A stretch of DNA of 13,025 nt from NCBI GenBank assembly GCA_023132135.1, contig JAGLYR010000115.1, positions 1 through 13,025 of the forward strand, written 5' to 3'. Each line of letters starts with the position of its first letter. Within the stretch, counting starts at the first letter, position 1. This document shows, piece after piece, positions 2,122 to 12,875 of the stretch. Below the pieces are notes generated by a model. It did no database searches. It saw only the letters and a list, made by a program, of their open reading frames with translations, and was not told where the DNA came from. This DNA is from Candidatus Eiseniibacteriota bacterium. GTDB taxonomy: Bacteria; Arandabacterota; Arandabacteria; JAGLYR01. Both the position numbers and the translations under genes were made by a program.

Positions 2122-5100
2122 ATGCTGTTGGATACCGGTCGGTATCGTGGTGTTGTGGCGCTTGCGTTCTTCGGCCTCGTTCTCGCGTCTCCGGTGCTTG
2201 GCGGGGAAGTAACCCTGACTCTCGAATTCCCGGAACCCACAGTCATCCATGCCGGCGACTATGTGCGGATAGAGTTCCCGGAAACCTGGAACTACGGCGA
2301 TCCCGGGGAACCTGTCGTCCCCTGGCGGGGGGTGCAGGTCCTGCTGCCTCCGGGCGAAGAAGTCTCCGGCGTGGAACTTGTGCCGGGTGAGGTGAGAACT
2401 CTCCAGGGTCATTTCGCACTGGAACCGGGCCAGCCCCAGTATCCCCTGAGTTTCGACGGGCCGGTTACACCTGTCTCGCCGGATGCGGCGATCTACGCGT
2501 CCGGCTCGCCGTACCCGGAGGATCTCGTCGGATCCGTCTCAACCCAGTTCCTCTGCGGTCATGGCGTTGGCGCAGCGTCCGTGTGCCCGATCCAGTATGT
2601 TCCGTCGACGGGAGAAGTTTCGTACTACACCGAGATCCGGATTCGGATCACAACGGAGCCAACCGAGCGGGCCCGGATTTCCCGCGAACGGCTTCTGCGT
2701 ACCACTCCCCAGACCGCAGCACGACTGGCCCGGATGGTGGAGAATCCGCTGGCGGTCTCGGGGTATCGAGGGGAAATGGCCACGCGCCAGCCTTTCGCAA
2801 GAGACATCGTCAATCCTGCGGACGACTTTGACTACGTGATCATCACCAACAGTACCTTTGAGCCGTACTTCCAGGATCTCGCCGATTTCAAGAGCGCCCG
2901 CGGGGTCCGGGCCACCATCGTCCTCATGTCCGATATTCTGGCCGAGTACTCCGGAGATGATACTCAGGACAAGATCAGGAATTTCATCACGGATGCCTAT
3001 AGTGGATGGGGCACGGAGTATGTCCTTCTCGGCGGGGACGACGAGATCATTCCTCATCGGGGCCTGTACGCAGTTGGCTACGGGACACCCGACCAGGACA
3101 TCGCTGCGGACCTCTACTACGGCGCTCTGGACGGGACCTGGAACGATGACGGGGACGCGTACTGGGGAGAACCCGGCGAGGACGACCTGATTCCCGAAGT
3201 TCGTGTTGGACGGGCGGCCATAGACAATGCTACCGAGGTGCAGAATTTCATCAACAAGACCCTCATGTACCAGGAAAACCCGGTACTGGCCGACTGCAAC
3301 CAGGCCATCATGATGGCCGAGTTGCTCTGGGACGAGCCCACCTGGGGAGGGGACTACAAGGACGAAATCAAGGACGGGGCTTCCACCCACGGGTACACCA
3401 CTGTCGGTTTCCAGGGGAGCGACTTCCTGGTGAGCACTCTCTACGACCGGGACCACGGTTCATGGTCTAAGTACGCCGCCATCGATTCGCTCAATTCCGG
3501 GATCAACCTCTGTAACCATCTCGGCCACTGCAACGTGACCTATGCTCTGAAGATGATCAACAGTGACGTGGACAGCCGGTTCACCAACGACGGTGTCAAC
3601 CACGGCTTTTTCATCATCTACACCCAGGGTTGCTACTGCAATTCCTTCGACAACCGCGATCCCTACGGCAACTACGGCGAGGACGCGATCGCCGAGCACT
3701 TCACTACCGTCGAGGAGGCGGCCGTGGCCTTCGTCGGAAACACGCGGTACGGATGGGGGCAGCACGAGAGTACCAATGGCTCCTCCCAGTATTTCGACAG
3801 GCAGTTCTTCGACGCGATCTTTGACGAGGACATCACCCGCATCGGCGATTGCAATGACGATTCCAAGGTGGACAACATTCCCTTCATCTCCTACGGCGCA
3901 AACCGCTGGTGCTACTACCAGCTGTGCGTCCTCGGGGACCCTGAGCTGGACATGTGGACCGGAGTCCCGTCGGTCCTGGCCGTGGATCATCCCGGGGTGA
4001 TTGCCACCGGCTCGGCGTACTTCACGGTAGCAGTGAGTTCGGCGAAAACCCCGGTGGAAGGCGCTCGGGTCTGCCTGATGAAGGGTTCCGAGGTCTACGA
4101 GGTGGACTTCACCGACGGGAGCGGGCAGGTGACTTTTGAGCCCGAACTGCAGACAGGCGGGTGGATGACTGTAACAGTCACCAAGCACGATTTCCTGCCG
4201 TACCAGAGTGACGTCGAGGTTGTGGAGGGGACCCCCCCCGCGCCACCCACGGGCCTTGCCGCGACTGCGGGGAATGGAGAGGTGTCCCTGTCCTGGGACG
4301 CGAACCCCGAACCCGATGTCGACTACTACATTGTCTACCGGTCCACGCTTCCGGCGCCCACCGATTCTCTGGCAGCGGTTCCCGCGCCGCAGACGGGCTA
4401 TGTGGACGCGAGCGCGATCAACGACACAACCTACTACTACCGCCTCAAGGCTGTGGATACCGAGGGCGACAGAAGCGGATACTCGGTTCAGGTGAACGCC
4501 ACTCCGAGCCAGCCCCCGGTGATCTTCATCACCCACACACCGCTGACGGATACGAACGACGCGTCTCACCCCTACCCTGCAGTCGCAATGATCACGACCA
4601 GCGAGGCGCCGGTGGATCCCGACTCGCTCTTCGTTGTCTGGGAGACCCAGACCCGCGGGTGGGAATCGGCCCCGATGACGGCCACCGGAACACCCAACGA
4701 GTATCTGGGACATATCCCGGCGCAGATCTGCGGGACCCTGGTCAACTACTACATTCTTGCCATGGATACGAACCACAACCGGGAAACCGACCCGGATTTG
4801 GCGCCCGCCTTCTACCACTCCTTCTCGGTCAACTTCAAGGTGGTCTTCGAGGATGATCTCGAGGCGGACCTGGGATGGACGGTGGGGGCGCCGGACGACG
4901 ACGCCACCACGGGCATCTGGGAGCGATGTGATCCGGAAGTCACCGATGCCCAACCGGGCGACGACCACACCCCGGGCGCCGGGACGCACGCCTACATCAC
5001 GCAGTGCGAAGCCGGGAGCGGGCAAGGATCCTACGACGTGGATGGCGGCAAGACCACCCTCTTCTCGCCCGTGTTCGATCTTACCGGCTACCTGAGTGTG

Positions 5101-6006
5101 GCGGTGAAGTACTACCGCTGGTACTCGAACGACACCGGCTACGCCCCGGGCGAGGACGACTGGACGGTGGAGGTAACGGGCGACGGTAATACCTGGGTGA
5201 CTCTCGAGAGCACCAACCTGAGCAACCGCAGCTGGTTGTTGAAGCAGTTTGACATCGGGGCCTACATCACGATTACGGATCAAGTCCAGTTCCGCTTCAT
5301 AGCCGGCGATTTCGGTACAGGTTCCCTGGTCGAGGCCGGGGTGGATGATTTCCAGATCCTGGGGTGTCCGGAATCCGGAGACACGGAACCGCCTACTGTG
5401 ACGGTGCTGGATCCCAACGGCGGTGAGGTGGTCGTGGGCGGCGGGAGCACGCCGTACGAGATTCGCTGGACGTCCCACGACAATGTGGGTGTGACCACCA
5501 CGGAAGTCCTTCTCTCCACCGACAGCGGGAAAACTTACCCTACGCTGATTGCTTCCGGGGTAGATATCATTTCGCCCTATGCATGGGAAGTGCCGGATAT
5601 GAATGAGGAGTATTGCCGGATCCTGGTGGTCTGCCGCGACAAAGCCGGGAATGAGGGCAGTGACGAGTCGGACGGCGGCTTCGAGATCCGGAGCACAACC
5701 GCAGTGAGCGCTCTTTGTTCACTACCGGCGGATCTGGTCCTGCGCCAGAACCAGCCGAATCCGTTCAATCCGGTGACGGAAATCGAGTTCGGGCTCCCCA
5801 CTGCCGGACAGATTACGCTTGAGATTTTCAGCGTCGAAGGTCGCCTGGTGACCACCCTGGCCGCCGGCGTGTACGATGCCGGCTATCACAAGGTGGTCTG
5901 GCGAGGGACCGATTCGGAGGGTGTTGAGGTTTCCAGCGGTGTCTACTTCAGCAGACTGGTCACAGGGGGGAAGACGCTCACGCGGAAGATGATAGCGTTG
6001 AAATAG
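2122..6006 (+). CDS. Secreted C25 (gingipain-type) cysteine peptidase with FN3, jelly-roll and FlgD/T9SS-like C-terminal domains
   Basis: A 1294-residue exported multidomain protease. The signal peptide spans residues 1 to about 27 (basic DTGRYRG, then VVALAFFGLVLASP). Residues 30-225 resemble the propeptide region of C25 peptidases. The peptidase C25 domain runs from about 236 (DFDYVIITN) to 612 (LGDPELDMW). By comparison with gingipain, the catalytic His is H469 in NHLGH and the nucleophile is C504 in TQGCYCNSFD; an acidic LLGGDDEIIPHRG stretch lies at 302-314. Next come an Ig-like domain (about 615-700), a fibronectin type III domain (about 706-795, from PPTGLAATAGNGEVSLSWD), another beta domain (800-900), a MAM/choice-of-anchor-like jelly roll (908-1083) and an Ig-like domain (1090-1190). 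The FlgD-Ig/type IX-like sorting domain starts near 1207 (LRQNQPNPFNPVTEIEFGLP) and ends TLTRKMIALK. GGAGG sits six bases before the ATG. It is probably cell-surface or secreted. The target substrates are unknown. Confidence 0.93.
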   Translation: MLLDTGRYRGVVALAFFGLVLASPVLGGEVTLTLEFPEPTVIHAGDYVRIEFPETWNYGDPGEPVVPWRGVQVLLPPGEEVSGVELVPGEVRTLQGHFALEPGQPQYPLSFDGPVTPVSPDAAIYASGSPYPEDLVGSVSTQFLCGHGVGAASVCPIQYVPSTGEVSYYTEIRIRITTEPTERARISRERLLRTTPQTAARLARMVENPLAVSGYRGEMATRQPFARDIVNPADDFDYVIITNSTFEPYFQDLADFKSARGVRATIVLMSDILAEYSGDDTQDKIRNFITDAYSGWGTEYVLLGGDDEIIPHRGLYAVGYGTPDQDIAADLYYGALDGTWNDDGDAYWGEPGEDDLIPEVRVGRAAIDNATEVQNFINKTLMYQENPVLADCNQAIMMAELLWDEPTWGGDYKDEIKDGASTHGYTTVGFQGSDFLVSTLYDRDHGSWSKYAAIDSLNSGINLCNHLGHCNVTYALKMINSDVDSRFTNDGVNHGFFIIYTQGCYCNSFDNRDPYGNYGEDAIAEHFTTVEEAAVAFVGNTRYGWGQHESTNGSSQYFDRQFFDAIFDEDITRIGDCNDDSKVDNIPFISYGANRWCYYQLCVLGDPELDMWTGVPSVLAVDHPGVIATGSAYFTVAVSSAKTPVEGARVCLMKGSEVYEVDFTDGSGQVTFEPELQTGGWMTVTVTKHDFLPYQSDVEVVEGTPPAPPTGLAATAGNGEVSLSWDANPEPDVDYYIVYRSTLPAPTDSLAAVPAPQTGYVDASAINDTTYYYRLKAVDTEGDRSGYSVQVNATPSQPPVIFITHTPLTDTNDASHPYPAVAMITTSEAPVDPDSLFVVWETQTRGWESAPMTATGTPNEYLGHIPAQICGTLVNYYILAMDTNHNRETDPDLAPAFYHSFSVNFKVVFEDDLEADLGWTVGAPDDDATTGIWERCDPEVTDAQPGDDHTPGAGTHAYITQCEAGSGQGSYDVDGGKTTLFSPVFDLTGYLSVAVKYYRWYSNDTGYAPGEDDWTVEVTGDGNTWVTLESTNLSNRSWLLKQFDIGAYITITDQVQFRFIAGDFGTGSLVEAGVDDFQILGCPESGDTEPPTVTVLDPNGGEVVVGGGSTPYEIRWTSHDNVGVTTTEVLLSTDSGKTYPTLIASGVDIISPYAWEVPDMNEEYCRILVVCRDKAGNEGSDESDGGFEIRSTTAVSALCSLPADLVLRQNQPNPFNPVTEIEFGLPTAGQITLEIFSVEGRLVTTLAAGVYDAGYHKVVWRGTDSEGVEVSSGVYFSRLVTGGKTLTRKMIALK

Positions 6007-6110: not shown

Positions 6111-6893
6111 ATGAAGACGGTTGCGCTCTTCTGTGCGATGGTTATCCTGCTCATGGCTTCACCGGTCCTTGCGGGCTGGGTTGTCGAAGAAGTGAGCGGG
6201 GATGCCGAGGATCAGGAAGTTACAACCCTCTACATCCAGGACAACAAGATCAAGGCCGTCGGGTCCCAGATCATGATCTTCGACCTTGAGAAGGGAACGT
6301 TCTGTGTTGTGATTCCGCAGCAGAAGGTCTACTACATCGGCCAGGTCGGCGAAATGCAGAAACAGGCGGAAGCGGTGGGGAAGCGGATGGAAGAGGAGTA
6401 CCTGAAGCAATTGCCGCCGGAGCAGAGGGAAGCGTATGAGCAATACCGGAAAAGCATGAAGAAAGAAGAACCGCCCGCGGCGCGGAAGTTGAAGGTGCAG
6501 GTGAAGAAGACTTCGGAGAAGCCCAAGATAGTCGGCTACTCGACACAGAAGTACGAGGTGCGGGTTGACGGTGAGCTGGTCGAGGAACTGTGGATAGCGC
6601 CGGACGTCAACGTGGGGGCGGAAATTGACTTGGGCAAGTATCGCGAATTCAGCACGTCCATGAGCAGTGGATCTGCGGAGGCGTCCTACAGTCTTGCCGA
6701 GGAGTACATGGCCCTCATGGAACGGGGGTACCCGCTCAAGAAAATCGAATACGAGGAGGGGGAGCAGACGGTCACCGAAGCTACGAAGGCTGAGAAGAAG
6801 AAGATTCCCGATTCCGAGTTCAGACCGCCGAAGAGCTTCCGGAAGGCTGACATGGAGGAAATGATGCGGGCCCAGCAGGGGTCTTCCGAATAG
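6111..6893 (+). CDS. Exported DUF4412-like protein
   Basis: A 260-residue protein with a clear signal peptide (MKTVALFCAMVILLMASPVLAG), probably cleaved after the LAG or VLA at about 21-22. The mature start, with repeated short beta strands (VTTLYIQDNKIKAVGSQIMI, then FDLEKGTFCVVIPQQKVYYI), looks like DUF4412/LolA-like proteins. A charged helical insert follows (about 82-125, rich in Glu, Gln and Lys), then KIVGYSTQKYEVRVDGELVEELWIA, a typical second half of that fold. The C-terminal 40 residues are Lys/Glu-rich. AAGGAG lies seven bases before the ATG. It is likely periplasmic; no enzymatic motif is visible. The family call rests on pattern recognition, and the protein could be a lineage-specific relative. 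Confidence 0.75.
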   Translation: MKTVALFCAMVILLMASPVLAGWVVEEVSGDAEDQEVTTLYIQDNKIKAVGSQIMIFDLEKGTFCVVIPQQKVYYIGQVGEMQKQAEAVGKRMEEEYLKQLPPEQREAYEQYRKSMKKEEPPAARKLKVQVKKTSEKPKIVGYSTQKYEVRVDGELVEELWIAPDVNVGAEIDLGKYREFSTSMSSGSAEASYSLAEEYMALMERGYPLKKIEYEEGEQTVTEATKAEKKKIPDSEFRPPKSFRKADMEEMMRAQQGSSE

Positions 6894-7276: not shown

Positions 7277-8806
7277 ATGGCGCGTCTATTCGAGTATCAG
7301 GGCAAGGAAATCCTCTCCCGGATGAAGATCCCGATCCCGAAGGGACAGGTGGCGAGGACCCCCGAGGAAGCCGAAGAGGCCGCCCGATCCATCGGGAAGC
7401 CCGTGATCATCAAGGCCCAGGCATGGGTCACGGGCCGGGCGAGCCTCGGAGGAATCAGGAAAGCGGACAGTGCGGATGAAGCCCGGAAAGCGGCCGAAGC
7501 CATTCTCGGCATGGAGATGAAGGGTTTTACCGTCAACGAGGTCCTGGTCGAAGAGCAAATCGACATCGACCAGGAATTCTATGCGGGAGTCATCATAGAT
7601 GACGTTGCACGCCGGCCGGTTGTGATTGTCAGTTCCATGGGCGGAACAGGGATCGAGGAAATCGCCCAGTCGCACCCCGACAAGGTGGCCACACAGAAGG
7701 TGAAGATCACCAGGGGGCTGCCGGCGCACGATGCCCGGAATCTCTGGAGGAAGGTCGGGATCTCGGGGAAGCTCCAGATGAAGCTGGGAAACGCGCTGGT
7801 CGGCCTCTACAACATGTGCCGCAAGTACGAGGCCCGGTCGGGAGAGATCAACCCGCTTGTCGTAACCAACGATGGGCAGGTCATGGCCGCCGACTGCCGG
7901 TTGACTGTTGATGACTACGCTGTCTTCCGGCACCCCGATCTCGGGATCGAGATTGCCAGGGAGCTGGACCGCCCCGCCACGCCGCTGGAGAAGATCGCCT
8001 ACCAGGTGGAGGCCGTGGACTACCGGGGTACCTTCTACTTCATCCAGATGGCTCAGGGATTCCGGGAGGGCGAGGGATACATCGGCTTCCACGGCGCGGG
8101 CGGGGGCGGGTCCATGATGAGCATGGATGCGCTCCTGAAACGCGGATACAAGATCGCCAATTTCACCGACACCAGCGGGAACCCGCCGTCATCAAAGGTC
8201 TACCGGGCAGCGCGGATCATCCTTTCCCAGGAAGGGCTGGACGGCTACTTTGCCTCGGGCTCCGGAGTTGCTTCGCAGGAGCAGTTCCATTCGGCCCGGG
8301 GATTCGTGAAGGCTTTCCGTGAGGTGGGGCTCTCAATTCCCGCCGTCATTCGCCTGGGAGGGAATTTCGAGGAAGAGGCCATCGAGATTCTCGGGAAATG
8401 CGCTTCGGGTCTTCCTTCGAAACTGGAAGCCTACGGCCGGGATGATTCTCCCGATTTCTGCGCCGAGCGACTGCAATTGCTGATCGAGGAGCAGAAGAAG
8501 GCAGGACTCCGGTCCTTCACACCCCGGAAGCGCAACCCGGCCCGGAAACCCTACAGGTTCGAAACCGTGACCGGGTCCATCGAAATCGATCATGCGTGCT
8601 GCGTCCAGTGCAAGGACAAACCATGCGTGGCGGCGTGTACCAGGGAGATTCTGAAGATTGAAGATAGCGCCCCGGTTCTGGCCCAGGAGGTCGCGGTGGT
8701 CAAGAAGGGCCGGTGCACGGAATGCCTGGCGTGTGAGATTGCCTGTGAGTTCGAGGGGAATGGGGGGCTCTGGATAGATCTGCCCATCCCCGAACTAAAG
8801 GAGTGA
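7277..8806 (+). CDS. ATP-grasp acyl-CoA ligase beta subunit (SucC/ATP-citrate-lyase type) fused to a 2[4Fe-4S] ferredoxin domain
   Basis: A 509-residue protein. The N-terminus MARLFEYQGKEILSRMKIPI matches the SucC/AclA start. An ATP-grasp domain follows (about 1-235, with VIIKAQAWVTGRASLGG and ARSGEINPLVV). The CoA-ligase half covers about 240-425, with GAGGGGS (273-279), the ATP-citrate-lyase-like SGNPPS (300-305) and IRLGGN (358-363). Residues about 430-509 are extra compared with SucC. They hold C442, C445, C450 and C454 (Cx2Cx4Cx3C) and C480, C483, C486 and C490 (Cx2Cx2Cx3C), the ligand pattern of a two-cluster ferredoxin. With the next gene it should form a hydroxy-acid (citrate or similar) CoA thioester using ATP; what the clusters do is unknown. 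The ATG at 7277 is chosen from the family N-terminus and the preceding GGAAGG; the GTG at 7187 would add 30 residues and lies within the promoter. Confidence 0.88.
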   Translation: MARLFEYQGKEILSRMKIPIPKGQVARTPEEAEEAARSIGKPVIIKAQAWVTGRASLGGIRKADSADEARKAAEAILGMEMKGFTVNEVLVEEQIDIDQEFYAGVIIDDVARRPVVIVSSMGGTGIEEIAQSHPDKVATQKVKITRGLPAHDARNLWRKVGISGKLQMKLGNALVGLYNMCRKYEARSGEINPLVVTNDGQVMAADCRLTVDDYAVFRHPDLGIEIARELDRPATPLEKIAYQVEAVDYRGTFYFIQMAQGFREGEGYIGFHGAGGGGSMMSMDALLKRGYKIANFTDTSGNPPSSKVYRAARIILSQEGLDGYFASGSGVASQEQFHSARGFVKAFREVGLSIPAVIRLGGNFEEEAIEILGKCASGLPSKLEAYGRDDSPDFCAERLQLLIEEQKKAGLRSFTPRKRNPARKPYRFETVTGSIEIDHACCVQCKDKPCVAACTREILKIEDSAPVLAQEVAVVKKGRCTECLACEIACEFEGNGGLWIDLPIPELKE

Positions 8807-8816
8807 GCGGAAACAG

Positions 8817-9737
8817 ATGTCCATTCTGATTGACAAAGAGAAGCGGGTTCTCATTCAGGGAATCACCGGGCGAGAGGGAATGACCCGGGCCAAGTTGATG
8901 ATGGACTACGGTAGCCAAGTGGTAGCCGGCTGCACTCCCGGGAAAAAAGGGGAGGTCGTGCACGGGGTCACGGTCTACGACACCGTTCAGGAGGCGGTAG
9001 AGGCAACCGGCCGGATCGATGTCAGTGTAATCTTTGTGCCCGCGCCCCTCATCAAGGGCGCAGCGCTGGAAGCGATCGAGGCCGGTGTGAAACTGCTGGT
9101 CATCGTGCCGGACCGGGTTCCCATCTATGACGTTCTGGAAATCGCGGAGGCGGCCGAGCAAAACGGGGCGCAGTTCGTCGGCCCGAACACACTGGGCGTA
9201 ATCAGCCCCGGCAAGGCGGTGGTGGGCATGATTGGCGGTCGCGCCCGGACGGCCAACGAGTGGTTCAAGCCGGGCCCGGTTGGGGTGATGTCCCGGTCCG
9301 GAGGCATCACCTCGGCGATATCCTACTACCTCACGCAGGAAGGACTGGGCCAGACCACGGCCATTCATGTTGGCGGCGATGCTGTGGTGGGACTCCCCCT
9401 CCACGAGGTCGTCAAGCACTTCCAGGCGGATGATGAAACGCGGATGGTGGTGATGTTCGGGGAGATCGGAACCGCGCAGGAGGAGAAGGTGGCCGATCTC
9501 ATCGAACAGGGGAAATTCACCAAACCCCTGGTGGCTTTTGTCGGGGGAAAGGCGGCCAAGTCGGGCACGCGCTTCTCGCATGCCGGTGCCATTGTGGAGG
9601 GCAACCGCGGGTCCCACGAGGGCAAAGTCAAGCGTCTGAGAGAAGTTGGAGCACACGTTGTGGATGCCTTTGGAGATATTCCCAAGGTGGCCAGGCGGGT
9701 GCTGGAAGAAGCCGGAAAACAGTCGGGAGATGCATGA
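8817..9737 (+). CDS. CoA ligase alpha subunit (SucD/CcsB type)
   Basis: A 306-residue partner of the preceding ATP-grasp subunit. The Rossmann CoA-binding domain begins RVLIQGITGREG (residues 10-21), with VFVPAPLIKGAALEAI-like and GPNTLGVISPG (122-132) segments. The ligase domain holds GPVGVMSRSGGITSAI (153-168), VGGDAVVG (185-192) and GEIGTAQEE (215-223). The phosphohistidine is H255 in SHAGAIVEG, equivalent to E. coli SucD H246, so the acyl-phosphate/phospho-His mechanism should be intact. Length is close to bacterial SucD. It begins ten bases after the beta subunit, whose AAAGGAG near its stop codon may serve as RBS. It is not fused to a citrate-synthase domain, unlike ATP-citrate lyase, because that part is the next gene. 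Confidence 0.92.
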   Translation: MSILIDKEKRVLIQGITGREGMTRAKLMMDYGSQVVAGCTPGKKGEVVHGVTVYDTVQEAVEATGRIDVSVIFVPAPLIKGAALEAIEAGVKLLVIVPDRVPIYDVLEIAEAAEQNGAQFVGPNTLGVISPGKAVVGMIGGRARTANEWFKPGPVGVMSRSGGITSAISYYLTQEGLGQTTAIHVGGDAVVGLPLHEVVKHFQADDETRMVVMFGEIGTAQEEKVADLIEQGKFTKPLVAFVGGKAAKSGTRFSHAGAIVEGNRGSHEGKVKRLREVGAHVVDAFGDIPKVARRVLEEAGKQSGDA

Positions 9738-10510
9738 TGGGTGAGTATCACTGGAAAACGGGCGTGACAAAGATCGAACCGAACAAGGTGGCCCTTCGGG
9801 GCTATCCACTGGATAACCTGATTGGCAAGATCAGCTTTGGGCAGGGGGTGTATCTCGCCATCAAGGGAGAGCTTCCCTCCGAGAACGTGGGCAGGATGAT
9901 GGAGGCAATGCTGGTTTCCTCTCTGGATCACGGGGCGACGCCACCCTCGACGCTTGTGGCCAGGGCGGTGGCCTCATGCGGGTCGACGCTGAATGCTGCG
10001 ATTGCGGCGGGAATACTGACCATCTCCCGTCATCACGGTGGGGCAGTCGAGAACTGCATGCGCGCTCTTCTGGAGGCCCGGGAGAAGATGACATCGGGAA
10101 TGTCCGTCGAGGAAGCGGCGACACAGCTGGTGGAAGAGTACGCGGGGAAGAAAAGGCGAATCGCCGGGTACGGGCACCGCATCCATAAAAGGGACCCACG
10201 GACCGTGCGTCTTCTTGAGTTGGCCGAGGAGCTGGGTGTTGCAGGGGATTTCGTGGCTCTGGGAAAGGCCGTTGCGGTCGCGATCGAAAAGCGGTCCGGG
10301 AAACAACTGCCCCTCAACGTAGACGGCGCTATTGCTACGCTCCTCTGCGAAATGGAGTTCGGACCCTCGATCGCCAACGCTTTTTTCATGATGGCGCGGA
10401 TCCCGGGCCTGGTGGCCCACATCCAGGAGGAGACGACGCGGGAAAGACCTATGCGGGTGATTCATCCCCGCGATCATGAGTACGACGGAGCGGAAGAGCG
10501 AACCCTGTAG
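9734..10510 (+). CDS. Citrate-synthase-fold lyase, citryl-CoA lyase type
   Basis: A 258-residue protein, short for a citrate synthase but right for citryl-CoA lyase. The citrate-synthase catalytic residues are all present: H101 (RHHGGAVEN), H148 (GYGHRIHKRDPR) and D197 (NVDGAI). ARIPGLVAHIQEE (221-233) and the C-terminal RPMRVIHPRDHEYDG correspond to substrate/CoA-binding parts. SSLDHGATPPSTLVARAVAS (62-81) is typical of the lyase branch. It should cleave a 3-hydroxyacyl-CoA such as citryl-CoA to acetyl-CoA and oxaloacetate. The start overlaps the upstream stop in ATGA, indicating translational coupling. The adjacent ATG at 9737 is an alternative with better spacing from GGGAGA. The preceding CoA ligase genes would supply the thioester. 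Whether the real substrate is citryl-CoA is not shown. Confidence 0.88.
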   Translation: MMGEYHWKTGVTKIEPNKVALRGYPLDNLIGKISFGQGVYLAIKGELPSENVGRMMEAMLVSSLDHGATPPSTLVARAVASCGSTLNAAIAAGILTISRHHGGAVENCMRALLEAREKMTSGMSVEEAATQLVEEYAGKKRRIAGYGHRIHKRDPRTVRLLELAEELGVAGDFVALGKAVAVAIEKRSGKQLPLNVDGAIATLLCEMEFGPSIANAFFMMARIPGLVAHIQEETTRERPMRVIHPRDHEYDGAEERTL

Positions 10511-10522
10511 GAGACGCGGAGA

Positions 10523-11056
10523 ATGAAGAACGAACTTCGAAAGCTGATTTCAGAGTTTGACCTCATCCAGGACAAGAATCTGAGAGAAGCCACCCTTGCC
10601 GTGTGGGAAAAGGCGATGATGGCGGGCGGGTGGAGCATCACGGACCTCACTCGTATCCCCTTTACCTTGCTCATCGAAGGGACAACCGTCGACTATGTAG
10701 CCCACGTCCGCGGGGTCACAAAGGTCATGGTGGAGGCGGCGAGAGTCCTGAAGGAGACGTACGGGAACCAGGTCAAGATCAACCACGACTACCTGGTAAT
10801 GGGTGGGCTACTGCACGACATCGGGAAGCTGGTGGAATACGAGGAGAAGAACGGCAAATTCGTGAAGAGCGGATGCGGGGAACTCCTGCGCCATCCGTTC
10901 TCCGGTGTCGGTCTCTGCTACGAAGCTGGAATCCCGACGGAAGTCCAACACATGATCGCCTGCCATTCCAAGGAAGGGGATCTGGGGAAGCGTACGGTGG
11001 AGGCCATTATCCTTCACCATGCCGATTTCACGAACTTTGAATGCCTGAAAGCGTAG
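10523..11056 (+). CDS. HD-domain metal-dependent phosphohydrolase
   Basis: A 177-residue stand-alone HD-domain protein. The metal-ligand set is visible: H61 (HVRGVTK), H98-D99 in GLLHDIGKL, H124 (LRHPFSG), H148 (ACHSKEGD; H143 is nearby) and D168 (ILHHADF). The LLHDIGK form resembles the HDIG subgroup. The first 45 residues form a helical lead with no known motif. AGGAGA lies eight bases before the ATG. The gene is wedged between the lyase (12 bases upstream) and the LeuC-like gene (5 bases downstream), so it is surely part of the operon. No phosphorylated intermediate is expected in the pathway, so it may hydrolyse a nucleotide or damaged metabolite, act as a regulator, or have a different activity. 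Its function is unassigned. Confidence 0.85.
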   Translation: MKNELRKLISEFDLIQDKNLREATLAVWEKAMMAGGWSITDLTRIPFTLLIEGTTVDYVAHVRGVTKVMVEAARVLKETYGNQVKINHDYLVMGGLLHDIGKLVEYEEKNGKFVKSGCGELLRHPFSGVGLCYEAGIPTEVQHMIACHSKEGDLGKRTVEAIILHHADFTNFECLKA

Positions 11057-11061
11057 GGACC

Positions 11062-12318
11062 ATGGGAAAGACATTCGCCGAGAAAATCCTGGCAGTCAAG
11101 TCCGGGCAGGATGAAGTCTCCGTTGGTCAGATTGTGGACGTCTCGCCCGACGCGACCCTGTCGCACGACAACACGGCGGCAATCTCAAAGATCTTCGAGA
11201 GCATCGGGGTCGAGAAAATCTGGGACCCGGCGAAGCCGGTGATTGTGCTGGATCACTGCGTTCCGGCGGCTACGGAGAAATACGCGTCCAATCACAAGAC
11301 CATCCGGGAGTTCGTGGCCAGGCAGGGGATCGGGAATTTCCACGACATCAACGCCGGAGTCTGCCACCAGGTCCTGGCCGAGCAGGGTCATGCCCTCCCC
11401 GGTCGGCTGATTCTGGGAAGCGATTCGCACACAACTAGCTACGGCGCCCTGGGCGCGTTTGCCGCCGGGATCGGTCGGTCGGAAATGGCCGTGATCTTTG
11501 CCACAGGAACCCTCTGGTTGAGAGTTCCCGAGACGTTGAAGCTCCAGCTGGAGGGTCCACTGCCGGACGGAGTCGAGCCGAAGGATGTAGTCCTCCGACT
11601 CGTCGGCGAACTGGGCGCGGACGGCGCGCTCTACCGGGCCGTGGAGTACACGGGCTCTGTCGTGGAGGAGATGAGTGTGGGCGGGCGGATGACCCTGTGC
11701 AACATGGCGGCGGAGATGGGGGCGAAGATCGGATACGTGGCTCCGGACAAGAAAACGGCTCGGTGGCTGGAAAAGAGAAAACGGGCCGACTATGAGGTCG
11801 TGATCTCGGACGAGGACGCGGAATTCGAGCAAGTTCTTCGTTTCGATATGGAAGGACTGGCGCCACAGGTTGCCAAACCTCACACCGTTGACAATGTGTG
11901 CGGGGTGGACGAGGTGGCCGGTACAAAGATCCAGCAGGCACTGGTGGGCACGTGCACCAACGGCCGCCTGGAGGATCTGGAGTCCGCTGCCCGGATTCTC
12001 TCCGGGAAGAAGGTCCACCGGGATGTACGACTGCTTGTCTTCCCGGCCTCGATGGAGGTCTACCGGGAAGCGCTGGATACCGGGGTCATCGGCCGGTTGG
12101 TGGACGCCGGCGCCGTGATCATGAATCCAGGGTGCGGGCCCTGCCTCGGCGCCCACGAGGGAGCTCTGGCCCCCGGAGAGGTTTGTCTCTCCACGGCCAA
12201 TCGAAATTTCAAGGGAAGGATGGGTTGCCGCGAGGCGGAAGTGTACCTGGCTTCCCCGCTCACCGTTGCTGCGTCTGCGGTCCAGGGTGAGATTACCGAT
12301 CCAAGGGAGTTCCTGTAG
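11062..12318 (+). CDS. LeuC/homoaconitase-type hydro-lyase large subunit
   Basis: A 418-residue aconitase-superfamily protein of the short (archaeal LeuC/HacA-like) type. It begins MGKTFAEKILAVKSG. Family landmarks include DHCVPAA (about 63-69), HDINAGVCHQVL and LGSDSHTTSYGALGAFAAGIGRSEMA. The [4Fe-4S] ligands are C298 (VGTCTNGR), C358 and C361 (GCGPCLG), with the expected spacing. With the small subunit it should catalyse dehydration/rehydration (hydroxyl migration) of a malate-type substrate such as isopropylmalate, homocitrate, citrate or a methylated malate. The ATG at 11062 is preferred over one at 11041 because the conserved N-terminus starts there and the earlier start would overlap the HD gene without a good RBS. 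No leuA, leuB or homoisocitrate dehydrogenase gene is adjacent, so leucine biosynthesis is not implied. Confidence 0.9.
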   Translation: MGKTFAEKILAVKSGQDEVSVGQIVDVSPDATLSHDNTAAISKIFESIGVEKIWDPAKPVIVLDHCVPAATEKYASNHKTIREFVARQGIGNFHDINAGVCHQVLAEQGHALPGRLILGSDSHTTSYGALGAFAAGIGRSEMAVIFATGTLWLRVPETLKLQLEGPLPDGVEPKDVVLRLVGELGADGALYRAVEYTGSVVEEMSVGGRMTLCNMAAEMGAKIGYVAPDKKTARWLEKRKRADYEVVISDEDAEFEQVLRFDMEGLAPQVAKPHTVDNVCGVDEVAGTKIQQALVGTCTNGRLEDLESAARILSGKKVHRDVRLLVFPASMEVYREALDTGVIGRLVDAGAVIMNPGCGPCLGAHEGALAPGEVCLSTANRNFKGRMGCREAEVYLASPLTVAASAVQGEITDPREFL

Positions 12319-12319
12319 A

Positions 12320-12348
12320 AGAGCATCTGCGAAATGTGTGGATGCTCT
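12320..12348 (+). other. Stem-loop between the LeuC-like and LeuD-like genes
   Basis: AGAGCATC (12320-12327) and GATGCTCT (12341-12348) are exact complements around a 13-base loop, starting just after the stop codon at 12318. There is no T-tract, so it is more likely an mRNA processing or stability hairpin tuning the ratio of the two subunits than a terminator. Confidence 0.5.
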
Positions 12349-12374
12349 CGCTTCCCTGTCGCATGGAGTGAAAC

Positions 12375-12875
12375 ATGGTACTCAGAGGCCGGGTCTGGAA
12401 GTACGGCGATGATGTCAACACCGACGTGATTTTTCCGGGCAAGTACACCTACACGATCACGGATCCCAAAGAGATGGCGGCCCACGCGCTGGAGGATCTG
12501 GACCCGGATTTCGCGGGCAGTGTGAAGGCCGGCGATCTTGTGGTTGCCGGCAGGAACTTCGGGTGCGGTAGTTCCCGGGAGCAGGCGGCTACATGTCTCA
12601 AGGAAGCCGGTGTTGGGGCCGTGATCGCGGAGTCGTTTTCCAGGATCTATTTCCGAAATGCCATCAACCAGGGTATGCCGGCAATTCAGTTCAAGGACGC
12701 CTCGCAGTACATCGAGTCGGGCGAAGAGATCACGGTTGATCTCGGCAAAGGCGAGATCACCTGCAAGGCGGGGACTTTCAATTTCCCGCCGCTGTCCGAG
12801 TTCATGATGGGAATCCTGGAGGATGGGGGACTGGTGCCGCATACGAAGAAAGTACTGCGGAAGAGCAGTACCTAG
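12375..12875 (+). CDS. LeuD/homoaconitase-type hydro-lyase small subunit
   Basis: A 166-residue small (swivelling) subunit, the size of archaeal-type LeuD/HacB. It opens with [21 protein letters not shown], then the substrate-specificity loop at residues 24-27, here Y-T-Y-T, followed by [18 protein letters not shown]. The family signature [13 protein letters not shown] is at 59-71, then [23 protein letters not shown]. In characterised enzymes the equivalent loop (YLVx in isopropylmalate, YLRT in homoaconitate enzymes, from memory) reports substrate; YTYT matches neither. GGAG lies six bases before the ATG. The stop codon TAG (12873-12875) is also the first three bases of a decayed palindrome copy. 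The 56-base gap upstream contains a stem-loop, unlike the other tight junctions of the operon. Confidence 0.9.

Follow-up and report, generated by a model that had tools for sequence, protein, structure and literature searches.

The closest described counterparts of the system considered here are the citryl-CoA synthetase (CcsA/CcsB) and citryl-CoA lyase (Ccl) of Hydrogenobacter thermophilus, which have the same three-component logic; the citramalate/isopropylmalate elongation pathway (CimA or LeuA, LeuCD, LeuB), with a similar isomerase and beta-decarboxylating dehydrogenase; and the 2-methylcitrate pathway (PrpD or AcnD/PrpF, then AcnB), with a similar split between dehydration and hydration. 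Genes resembling those for citryl-CoA synthetase and lyase (CCS-CCL) in Planctomycetes from hot-spring metagenomes have been interpreted as part of the reductive tricarboxylic acid (TCA) cycle (in the passages of PMC5459899 compared here), and ccl has been taken as a marker of that cycle, for example in Zixibacteria (PMC11279179). We analyzed an operon from a Candidatus Eiseniibacteriota bacterium for a CoA ligase (ScsB and ScsA), a citryl-CoA-lyase homologue (CCL), an HD-domain protein and an aconitase-superfamily pair (LeuCD1). The operon is located in a stretch of 13025 bases (the window), which is one entire contig (C19). The first-pass annotation of this DNA had described the six genes as a self-contained set. 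We found that a dehydrogenase and a second dehydratase are needed too, and the window probably covers genes one to six of a nine-gene module whose last three, encoding the dehydrogenase and a second LeuCD pair (LeuCD2), are on another contig (C20) of the same genome. We propose, with a probability of about 0.45, that the module would form one linear, reversible route acting on a small acid other than citrate, with citramalate likelier than citrate.

The six genes are a conserved unit, as had been suggested. Relatives were sampled with one genome per species, giving 338 relatives of the ligase; only the best 80 were kept, so the sample is biased to close relatives. Among loci with room for the gene in question, ScsA followed ScsB in 65 of 75, the lyase gene followed ScsA in 47 of 54, and the HD gene followed the lyase gene in 39 of 42. 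The concern that the genes might rarely co-occur therefore does not hold in this neighborhood comparison. We also counted genes in 21 loci that could be followed for 7.5 kb past the HD gene, or that were shorter but already held LeuC and the dehydrogenase; LeuC was present in 15 and the dehydrogenase in 15. The tightest form, in Aminicenantes (L069), is a run of nine genes with four overlaps of 4 bases. By title, carriers include Chloroflexota, Aminicenantes, KSB1, WOR-3, Zixibacteriota, Neomarinimicrobiota, Hydrothermota, Caldithrix and Thermodesulfobacteriota. In the WOR-3 loci ScsB, ScsA, CCL and HD are together and the dehydrogenase and LeuC2 are elsewhere, and in the Desulfobacterota loci ScsBA and CCL are the only module genes present. 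No relatives were found in the viral contigs searched.

Further downstream members, for which the first-pass annotation had recommended looking, were found in relatives: a decarboxylating dehydrogenase (PF00180) encoded after LeuD or HD and, next to it, either another LeuCD or a gene of the PrpD family. The order is reversed in some Chloroflexota, where this LeuCD precedes the dehydrogenase. The window ends 150 bases beyond LeuD1. In the window genome (3.4 Mb, 96% complete), the only PF00180 protein is encoded on C20, a contig of 4780 bases, with a second LeuCD directly after it. This dehydrogenase shares 66-74% identity with the operon-linked enzymes and 41-43% with characterised isocitrate and homoisocitrate dehydrogenases. 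The C20 LeuC falls within the clade of operon LeuC2 proteins in a FastTree tree made without support analysis. The end of C19 has no overlapping sequence with C20 or C56, so the adjacency of C19 and C20 comes from synteny and not from the assembly.

The second dehydratase occurs in two forms. We counted 20 genomes that encode the module dehydrogenase: eight had a PrpD-family enzyme (called at 49% or more identity) and 12 had a dehydrogenase-linked LeuC2 (assigned by tree for loci in hand and elsewhere by adjacency to the dehydrogenase); none had both and none had neither. A Hydrothermota genome (G066) was left out of this count because its type could not be assigned, and the KSB1 loci carry another LeuC type. 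The exclusion (Fisher's test, 8e-6, not corrected for descent), with both states found inside Chloroflexota, indicates that the two proteins fill one step, and the pattern suggests that dehydration and hydration are carried out separately. LeuC1 sits in its own clade of operon LeuC proteins, and most operon members of LeuD1 have the loop G[KR]YTY[TSKQ].

The C20 dehydrogenase falls short of the curated equivalog models. It scored 297 against a cut-off of 510 for isocitrate dehydrogenase (NF006529) and 215 against 353 for LeuB, having FRENTEG where LeuB has REL; its best score was with methanogen homoisocitrate dehydrogenase (353 against 540). The serine/asparagine pair of Escherichia coli isocitrate dehydrogenase binds the third carboxylate. 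Ordinary isocitrate dehydrogenases of the carrier genomes keep S-x-N-V and mostly have S-L-N-V-T-[LM]-R at this motif and LeuB proteins have L-L-x-L-R; the module enzymes have S-P-I-V-x-L-R, in which S-x-N is lost. At the position facing the gamma group they have hydrophobic residues, as in archaeal isopropylmalate dehydrogenase.

The ligase is closer to succinyl-CoA synthetase and is not an orthologue of the Hydrogenobacter citryl-CoA synthetase. In comparisons with solved structures, ScsB scored 246 bits with SucC and 118 bits with CcsA, and Foldseek with its AlphaFold2 (AF2) model (predicted local distance difference test, pLDDT, 90.9) gave the succinyl-CoA synthetase beta subunit as the best match, followed by CcsA and ATP-citrate lyase. 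The loop GGTASNTR or GGTANNTR of citryl-CoA synthetase is replaced by GVASQEQ, which is nearly or fully invariant in 81 sequences; within it VASQEQ takes the place of TANNTR or TASNTR, and ASQEQ is invariant in 81 of 81. In human ATP-citrate lyase the equivalent segment is SIANFT, and its N and T contact citrate. ScsB does have the segments GGGGS...[SG]GNPP in common with CcsA and not with SucC, and its C-terminal ligase region has a weak match to PF16114 Citrate_bind (25.3 bits; cut-off 26.8). Both subunits missed the succinate-CoA ligase equivalog cut-offs (beta, 264 against 370; alpha, 288 against 336). ScsA is mostly 64-73% identical to its operon relatives and 44% identical to the canonical SucD of its own genome. 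A separate canonical SucCD is encoded on C280; its SucC and the module ligase share 37% identity. ScsBA is thus not the sole succinate ligase of the genome, and its assignment as the genome's succinate ligase is disfavored.

The first-pass annotation had listed a ferredoxin as an added component. The ferredoxin domain is present; however, it is part of the ligase and not a separate protein. Its eight cysteines (C442, 445, 450, 454, 480, 483, 486 and 490 of ScsB) are invariant in 81 sequences within the ligase beta subunit, whose 509-residue architecture is kept in relatives. In PDB searches the domain had weak matches to Fe-S subunits of oxidoreductases. Four Aminicenantes loci (L068, L073, L079 and L092) encode the same ligase pair, fused ferredoxin included, but have no lyase gene; a class II aldolase gene comes after the pair, and the ligase may thus serve other cleavage reactions.

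The description of CCL as citryl-CoA-lyase-like was confirmed. Its nearest solved structure is the Hydrogenobacter citryl-CoA lyase 6HXP (223 bits), the next one scoring 65 bits. It exceeded the cut-offs of three citryl-CoA-lyase subfamily models, including NF004869 (cut-off 212). The catalytic and arginine residues are kept: H101, H148, R156, D197 and R222 are invariant in 51 operon members. The HD protein has putative metal ligands (H61, D99, H124, H143, H148 and D168) that are invariant in 30 sequences. Its AF2 model (pLDDT 94) is closest to the HD domain of YhaM, a generic HD phosphohydrolase fold, and a sequence search of the PDB gave no match.

Table 1. Features of the operon in the window.
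Feature	Coordinates	Strand	Support
ScsB-Fd: ADP/ATP-linked CoA-ligase beta (ATP-grasp + substrate domain) with fused C-terminal ferredoxin domain	7277..8806	+	PF08442 8.9e-53
2[4Fe-4S] ferredoxin domain of ScsB, residues about 433-491	8573..8749	+	eight invariant cysteines
ScsA: CoA-ligase alpha subunit	8817..9737	+	PF02629, PF00549
CCL: citryl-CoA-lyase homologue, citrate-synthase fold	9734..10510	+	NF004869 282 bits; 6HXP 2.7e-65
HD-domain metal-dependent phosphohydrolase-like protein	10523..11056	+	PF01966 3.1e-12
LeuC1: aconitase-superfamily large subunit	11062..12318	+	TIGR01343 561 bits
LeuD1: aconitase-superfamily small subunit	12375..12875	+	TIGR02087 201 bits

The six open reading frames (7277-12875, + strand) are densely spaced, with gaps of +10, -4, +12, about +5 and +56 bases in gene order, and the earlier gene calls were confirmed. 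The annotated start of LeuC1 is 11041; 11062 (MGKTFAEK) is likelier and matches relatives. Upstream, at 65-1042, 1067-1999 and 6111-6893, are genes for a DUF6599 protein, a TolB-like PD40 beta-propeller protein and a DUF4412 protein. A large secreted C25-family (gingipain-like) cysteine peptidase with an FlgD-Ig-type C-terminal domain, unrelated to the operon, is encoded at 2122-6006.

In the proposed route, CCL would join acetyl-CoA and a 2-oxo acid, R-CO-COOH, or cleave the product, and ScsBA would exchange the thioester for ATP (hydroxyacyl-CoA + ADP + Pi <-> hydroxy acid + CoA + ATP). LeuCD2, or the PrpD-family enzyme in other lineages, would dehydrate the 2-hydroxy acid, LeuCD1 would rehydrate the product to a 3-substituted malate, and the dehydrogenase would oxidise and decarboxylate this to R-CH2-CO-COOH. 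Overall, acetyl-CoA + 2-oxo acid + ADP + Pi <-> hydroxy acid + ATP <-> isomer <-> longer 2-oxo acid + CO2 + NAD(P)H. R would most likely be small and not carboxymethyl, and in the citramalate case the conversion would be pyruvate <-> 2-oxobutyrate. We infer the reactions, the substrate, the direction, the stereochemistry and any roles of the ferredoxin domain and the HD protein from sequence. Citramalate is the substrate to which we give most weight, tentatively; citrate comes after it as an unlikely one, longer or other acids are less likely again, and a still smaller share is left unassigned.

The pair of dehydratases bears on the choice between citramalate and citrate. By analogy with Si-citrate synthase, a lyase of the citrate-synthase type acting on a chiral acid should give the (S)-citramalate-like enantiomer. 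Ordinary LeuCD uses the (R)-citramalate series. With the enantiomers opposed in this way, a second dehydratase would be needed. Citrate is prochiral, and one aconitase does both half-reactions; two separate dehydratases would suit a chiral acid. Neighbors of ScsBA-CCL in Desulfobacterota are suggestive of the same acid. In L053, L058 and L072 the order is SdhA-like, SdhB-like (uncalled in L072), class I fumarase-like beta and alpha, ScsB, ScsA and CCL, with KorBC upstream of the set in L072. The fumarase-like and SdhA-like proteins scored below the curated values (118 against 276 and 281 against 567). Class I fumarases convert mesaconate to (S)-citramalate (PMC12290011), and the fumarase-like neighbors would fit (S)-citramalate. 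A broader scheme, which we consider rather unlikely, is that the module is a reversible, ATP-conserving elongation of 2-oxo acids via (S)-citramalyl-CoA, parallel to the citric acid cycle, and that in genomes with methylmalonyl-CoA mutase it could close another cycle for the oxidation of acetyl-CoA, by way of propionyl-CoA.

Several observations weigh against the citramalate route. CCL retains the oxaloacetate-binding arginines of citrate synthase, which suits citrate. The window genome (G000) has an aconitase of the PRK07229 type, adjoining glutamate dehydrogenase on C56 (L010); with no citrate synthase detected in the genome, this aconitase is stranded unless citrate comes from the module. 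Canonical isocitrate dehydrogenase, too, seems to be missing in the relatives that lack citrate synthase. Methanogen homoisocitrate dehydrogenase may have the SPI motif as well. The mutase was found in 22 of 29 carriers and missing in seven, including three WOR-3 (genome completeness not stated); most carriers could thus run a cycle of propionyl-CoA oxidation, but its case as a general scheme is weakened. Finally, the neighbors would suit a role in the citric acid cycle. They include pyruvate dehydrogenase E1, LipB, complex I and 2-oxoacid:ferredoxin oxidoreductase (Kor). At the Caldithrix locus (L043) these are pyruvate dehydrogenase E1 alpha and beta, then NuoB, NuoCD and NuoE (Nuo read by eye); other loci have Kor, Etf and Hdr-like proteins.

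One rival reading is an ATP-coupled citrate route, which we regard as unlikely. ScsBA and CCL would make or cleave citrate, LeuCD or PrpD would be a split aconitase, and the dehydrogenase would be an isocitrate dehydrogenase. In the oxidative direction each citrate would yield one ATP, as with ATP-citrate lyase in Desulfobacter; in the reductive direction the route would be the citrate cleavage of the reductive TCA cycle. Desulfobacter postgatei is an oxidative precedent, as cited in the passages of PMC9768450 and PMC12137691 consulted. The likeness of CCL to the Hydrogenobacter lyase, with its arginines, the segments shared with CcsA, the Citrate_bind match and the pyruvate dehydrogenase, complex I, Kor and Sdh/fumarase-like neighbors all favor this route. 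So does the gene content of the window genome, in which we found no citrate-synthase-family (PF00285) protein besides CCL and no PF00682 protein, and therefore no other known route to citrate, Re-type citrate synthase included. The lack of a PF00682 protein also means that no ordinary citramalate or isopropylmalate synthase was found, which favors the citramalate route. On the other hand, the ligase citrate loop and the S-x-N motif of the dehydrogenase are lost, and two dehydratases are retained where one aconitase would suffice. In addition, 23 of 30 relatives have a full-length citrate synthase besides the module, ruling out that the operon replaces citrate synthase everywhere. Two inspected genomes, Hydrothermota G066 and WOR-3 G078, have complete ordinary clusters of synthase, aconitase and isocitrate dehydrogenase in addition to the module. 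The ordinary aconitase of G066 is itself LeuCD-type, with the loop PGRYFHLR instead of the PGKYTYT of the module. In a Hydrothermota TCA cluster (L128:1184-5334) a LeuCD-type aconitase lies between citrate synthase and isocitrate dehydrogenase, which shows that the place of aconitase can be taken by proteins of the LeuCD type. The doubt about citrate raised in the first-pass annotation is thus supported by the relatives and by the replaced motifs.

Elongation of a longer oxo acid, for example 2-oxoglutarate via homocitrate to 2-oxoadipate, is improbable. LeuC1 comes near the homoaconitase cut-off (HacA_Meth, 490 against 550), the C20 dehydrogenase scores best as a homoisocitrate dehydrogenase, and the CCL arginines are retained, yet every equivalog cut-off is missed. 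The homoaconitase loop is YLRT, and that of LeuD1 is YTYT; the dehydrogenase is without the homoisocitrate dehydrogenase arginine at its motif. A propionyl-CoA-based variant acting on 2-methylcitrate or 2,3-dimethylmalate is very improbable. The interchange of PrpD and aconitase-family enzymes recalls that of PrpD and AcnD/PrpF in the 2-methylcitrate pathway, as given in the part of PMC5690661 consulted. A substituent on the acyl arm, however, would give a tertiary alcohol that the linked dehydrogenase cannot oxidise. Dehydrogenases of the PF00180 type need a secondary alcohol, and 2-methylisocitrate is tertiary; methylcitrate, which had been offered as a substrate, is therefore unlikely. In the window genome CCL is the sole citrate-synthase-family protein and no close PrpD-family match was found, and PrpB, which was not searched for, did not appear in the annotated recurrent neighbor clusters. 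Least credible is a chance packing of unrelated housekeeping genes, a succinate-CoA ligase and a leucine isomerase. The family names come from general models and would allow it, but a canonical SucCD is on C280, gene order is kept over many phyla, and relatives hold separate LeuCD-LeuB or LeuB loci. As for a role in making branched-chain amino acids, the window genome has a lone IlvC on C68 with no recognised ilv or leu genes beside it, and no LeuA or CimA.

Many little-studied sediment and hot-spring phyla carry the module. Given its adjacency to pyruvate dehydrogenase, complex I and ferredoxin-dependent oxidoreductases, it probably belongs to central metabolism in its carriers. CCL passes the curated citryl-CoA-lyase models, and if its substrate is not citrate, carbon-fixation calls made from such models may be wrong. 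If the module does make citrate, it would be a widespread ATP-yielding alternative to citrate synthase. No description of the module was found in the open-access literature.

We compared the module with the known systems. The Hydrogenobacter precedent named in the first-pass annotation holds for the lyase, Ccl being the nearest solved relative of CCL, and fails for the ligase. The module ligase shares the GGGGS and GNPP segments of CcsA, but its beta subunit is nearer to succinyl-CoA synthetase, is fused to ferredoxin and has an altered citrate loop. Because the ligase fails this defining feature, we did not file the module as a citryl-CoA synthetase/lyase system. In CCL, position 99 is mostly R/K and not S/D, and position 215 is N and not K. 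The module also adds the HD protein, two dehydratases and the dehydrogenase, and would in effect be a route of the citryl-CoA synthetase/lyase kind with an isomerisation and an oxidative decarboxylation appended. Another genome has what is likely to be a true cluster for citrate cleavage (L034:5639-10096), with the order isocitrate-dehydrogenase-like gene, CcsA, CcsB and CCL, which offers a control for the motifs. In the Planctomycetes report a SucCD-like pair adjoins a CCL-like gene, as in the module; its passages compared here do not mention the ferredoxin fusion or a module with HD, LeuCD and dehydrogenase genes. The reductive TCA cycle calls for a citrate cleavage enzyme, a ferredoxin-dependent 2-oxoglutarate synthase and autotrophic growth; Kor genes are near some loci. 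Unlike the 2-methylcitrate pathway, the module ends with an oxidative decarboxylase and not a PrpB lyase, and its PrpD-family enzymes score far below the equivalog cut-offs (122 against 950 and 79 against 458). With citramalate/isopropylmalate elongation the overall chemistry would be identical if R is methyl or isopropyl. The module differs in having two dehydratases and in condensing by CCL and ScsBA, without a PF00682 synthase, so that the energy of the thioester would be kept as ATP.

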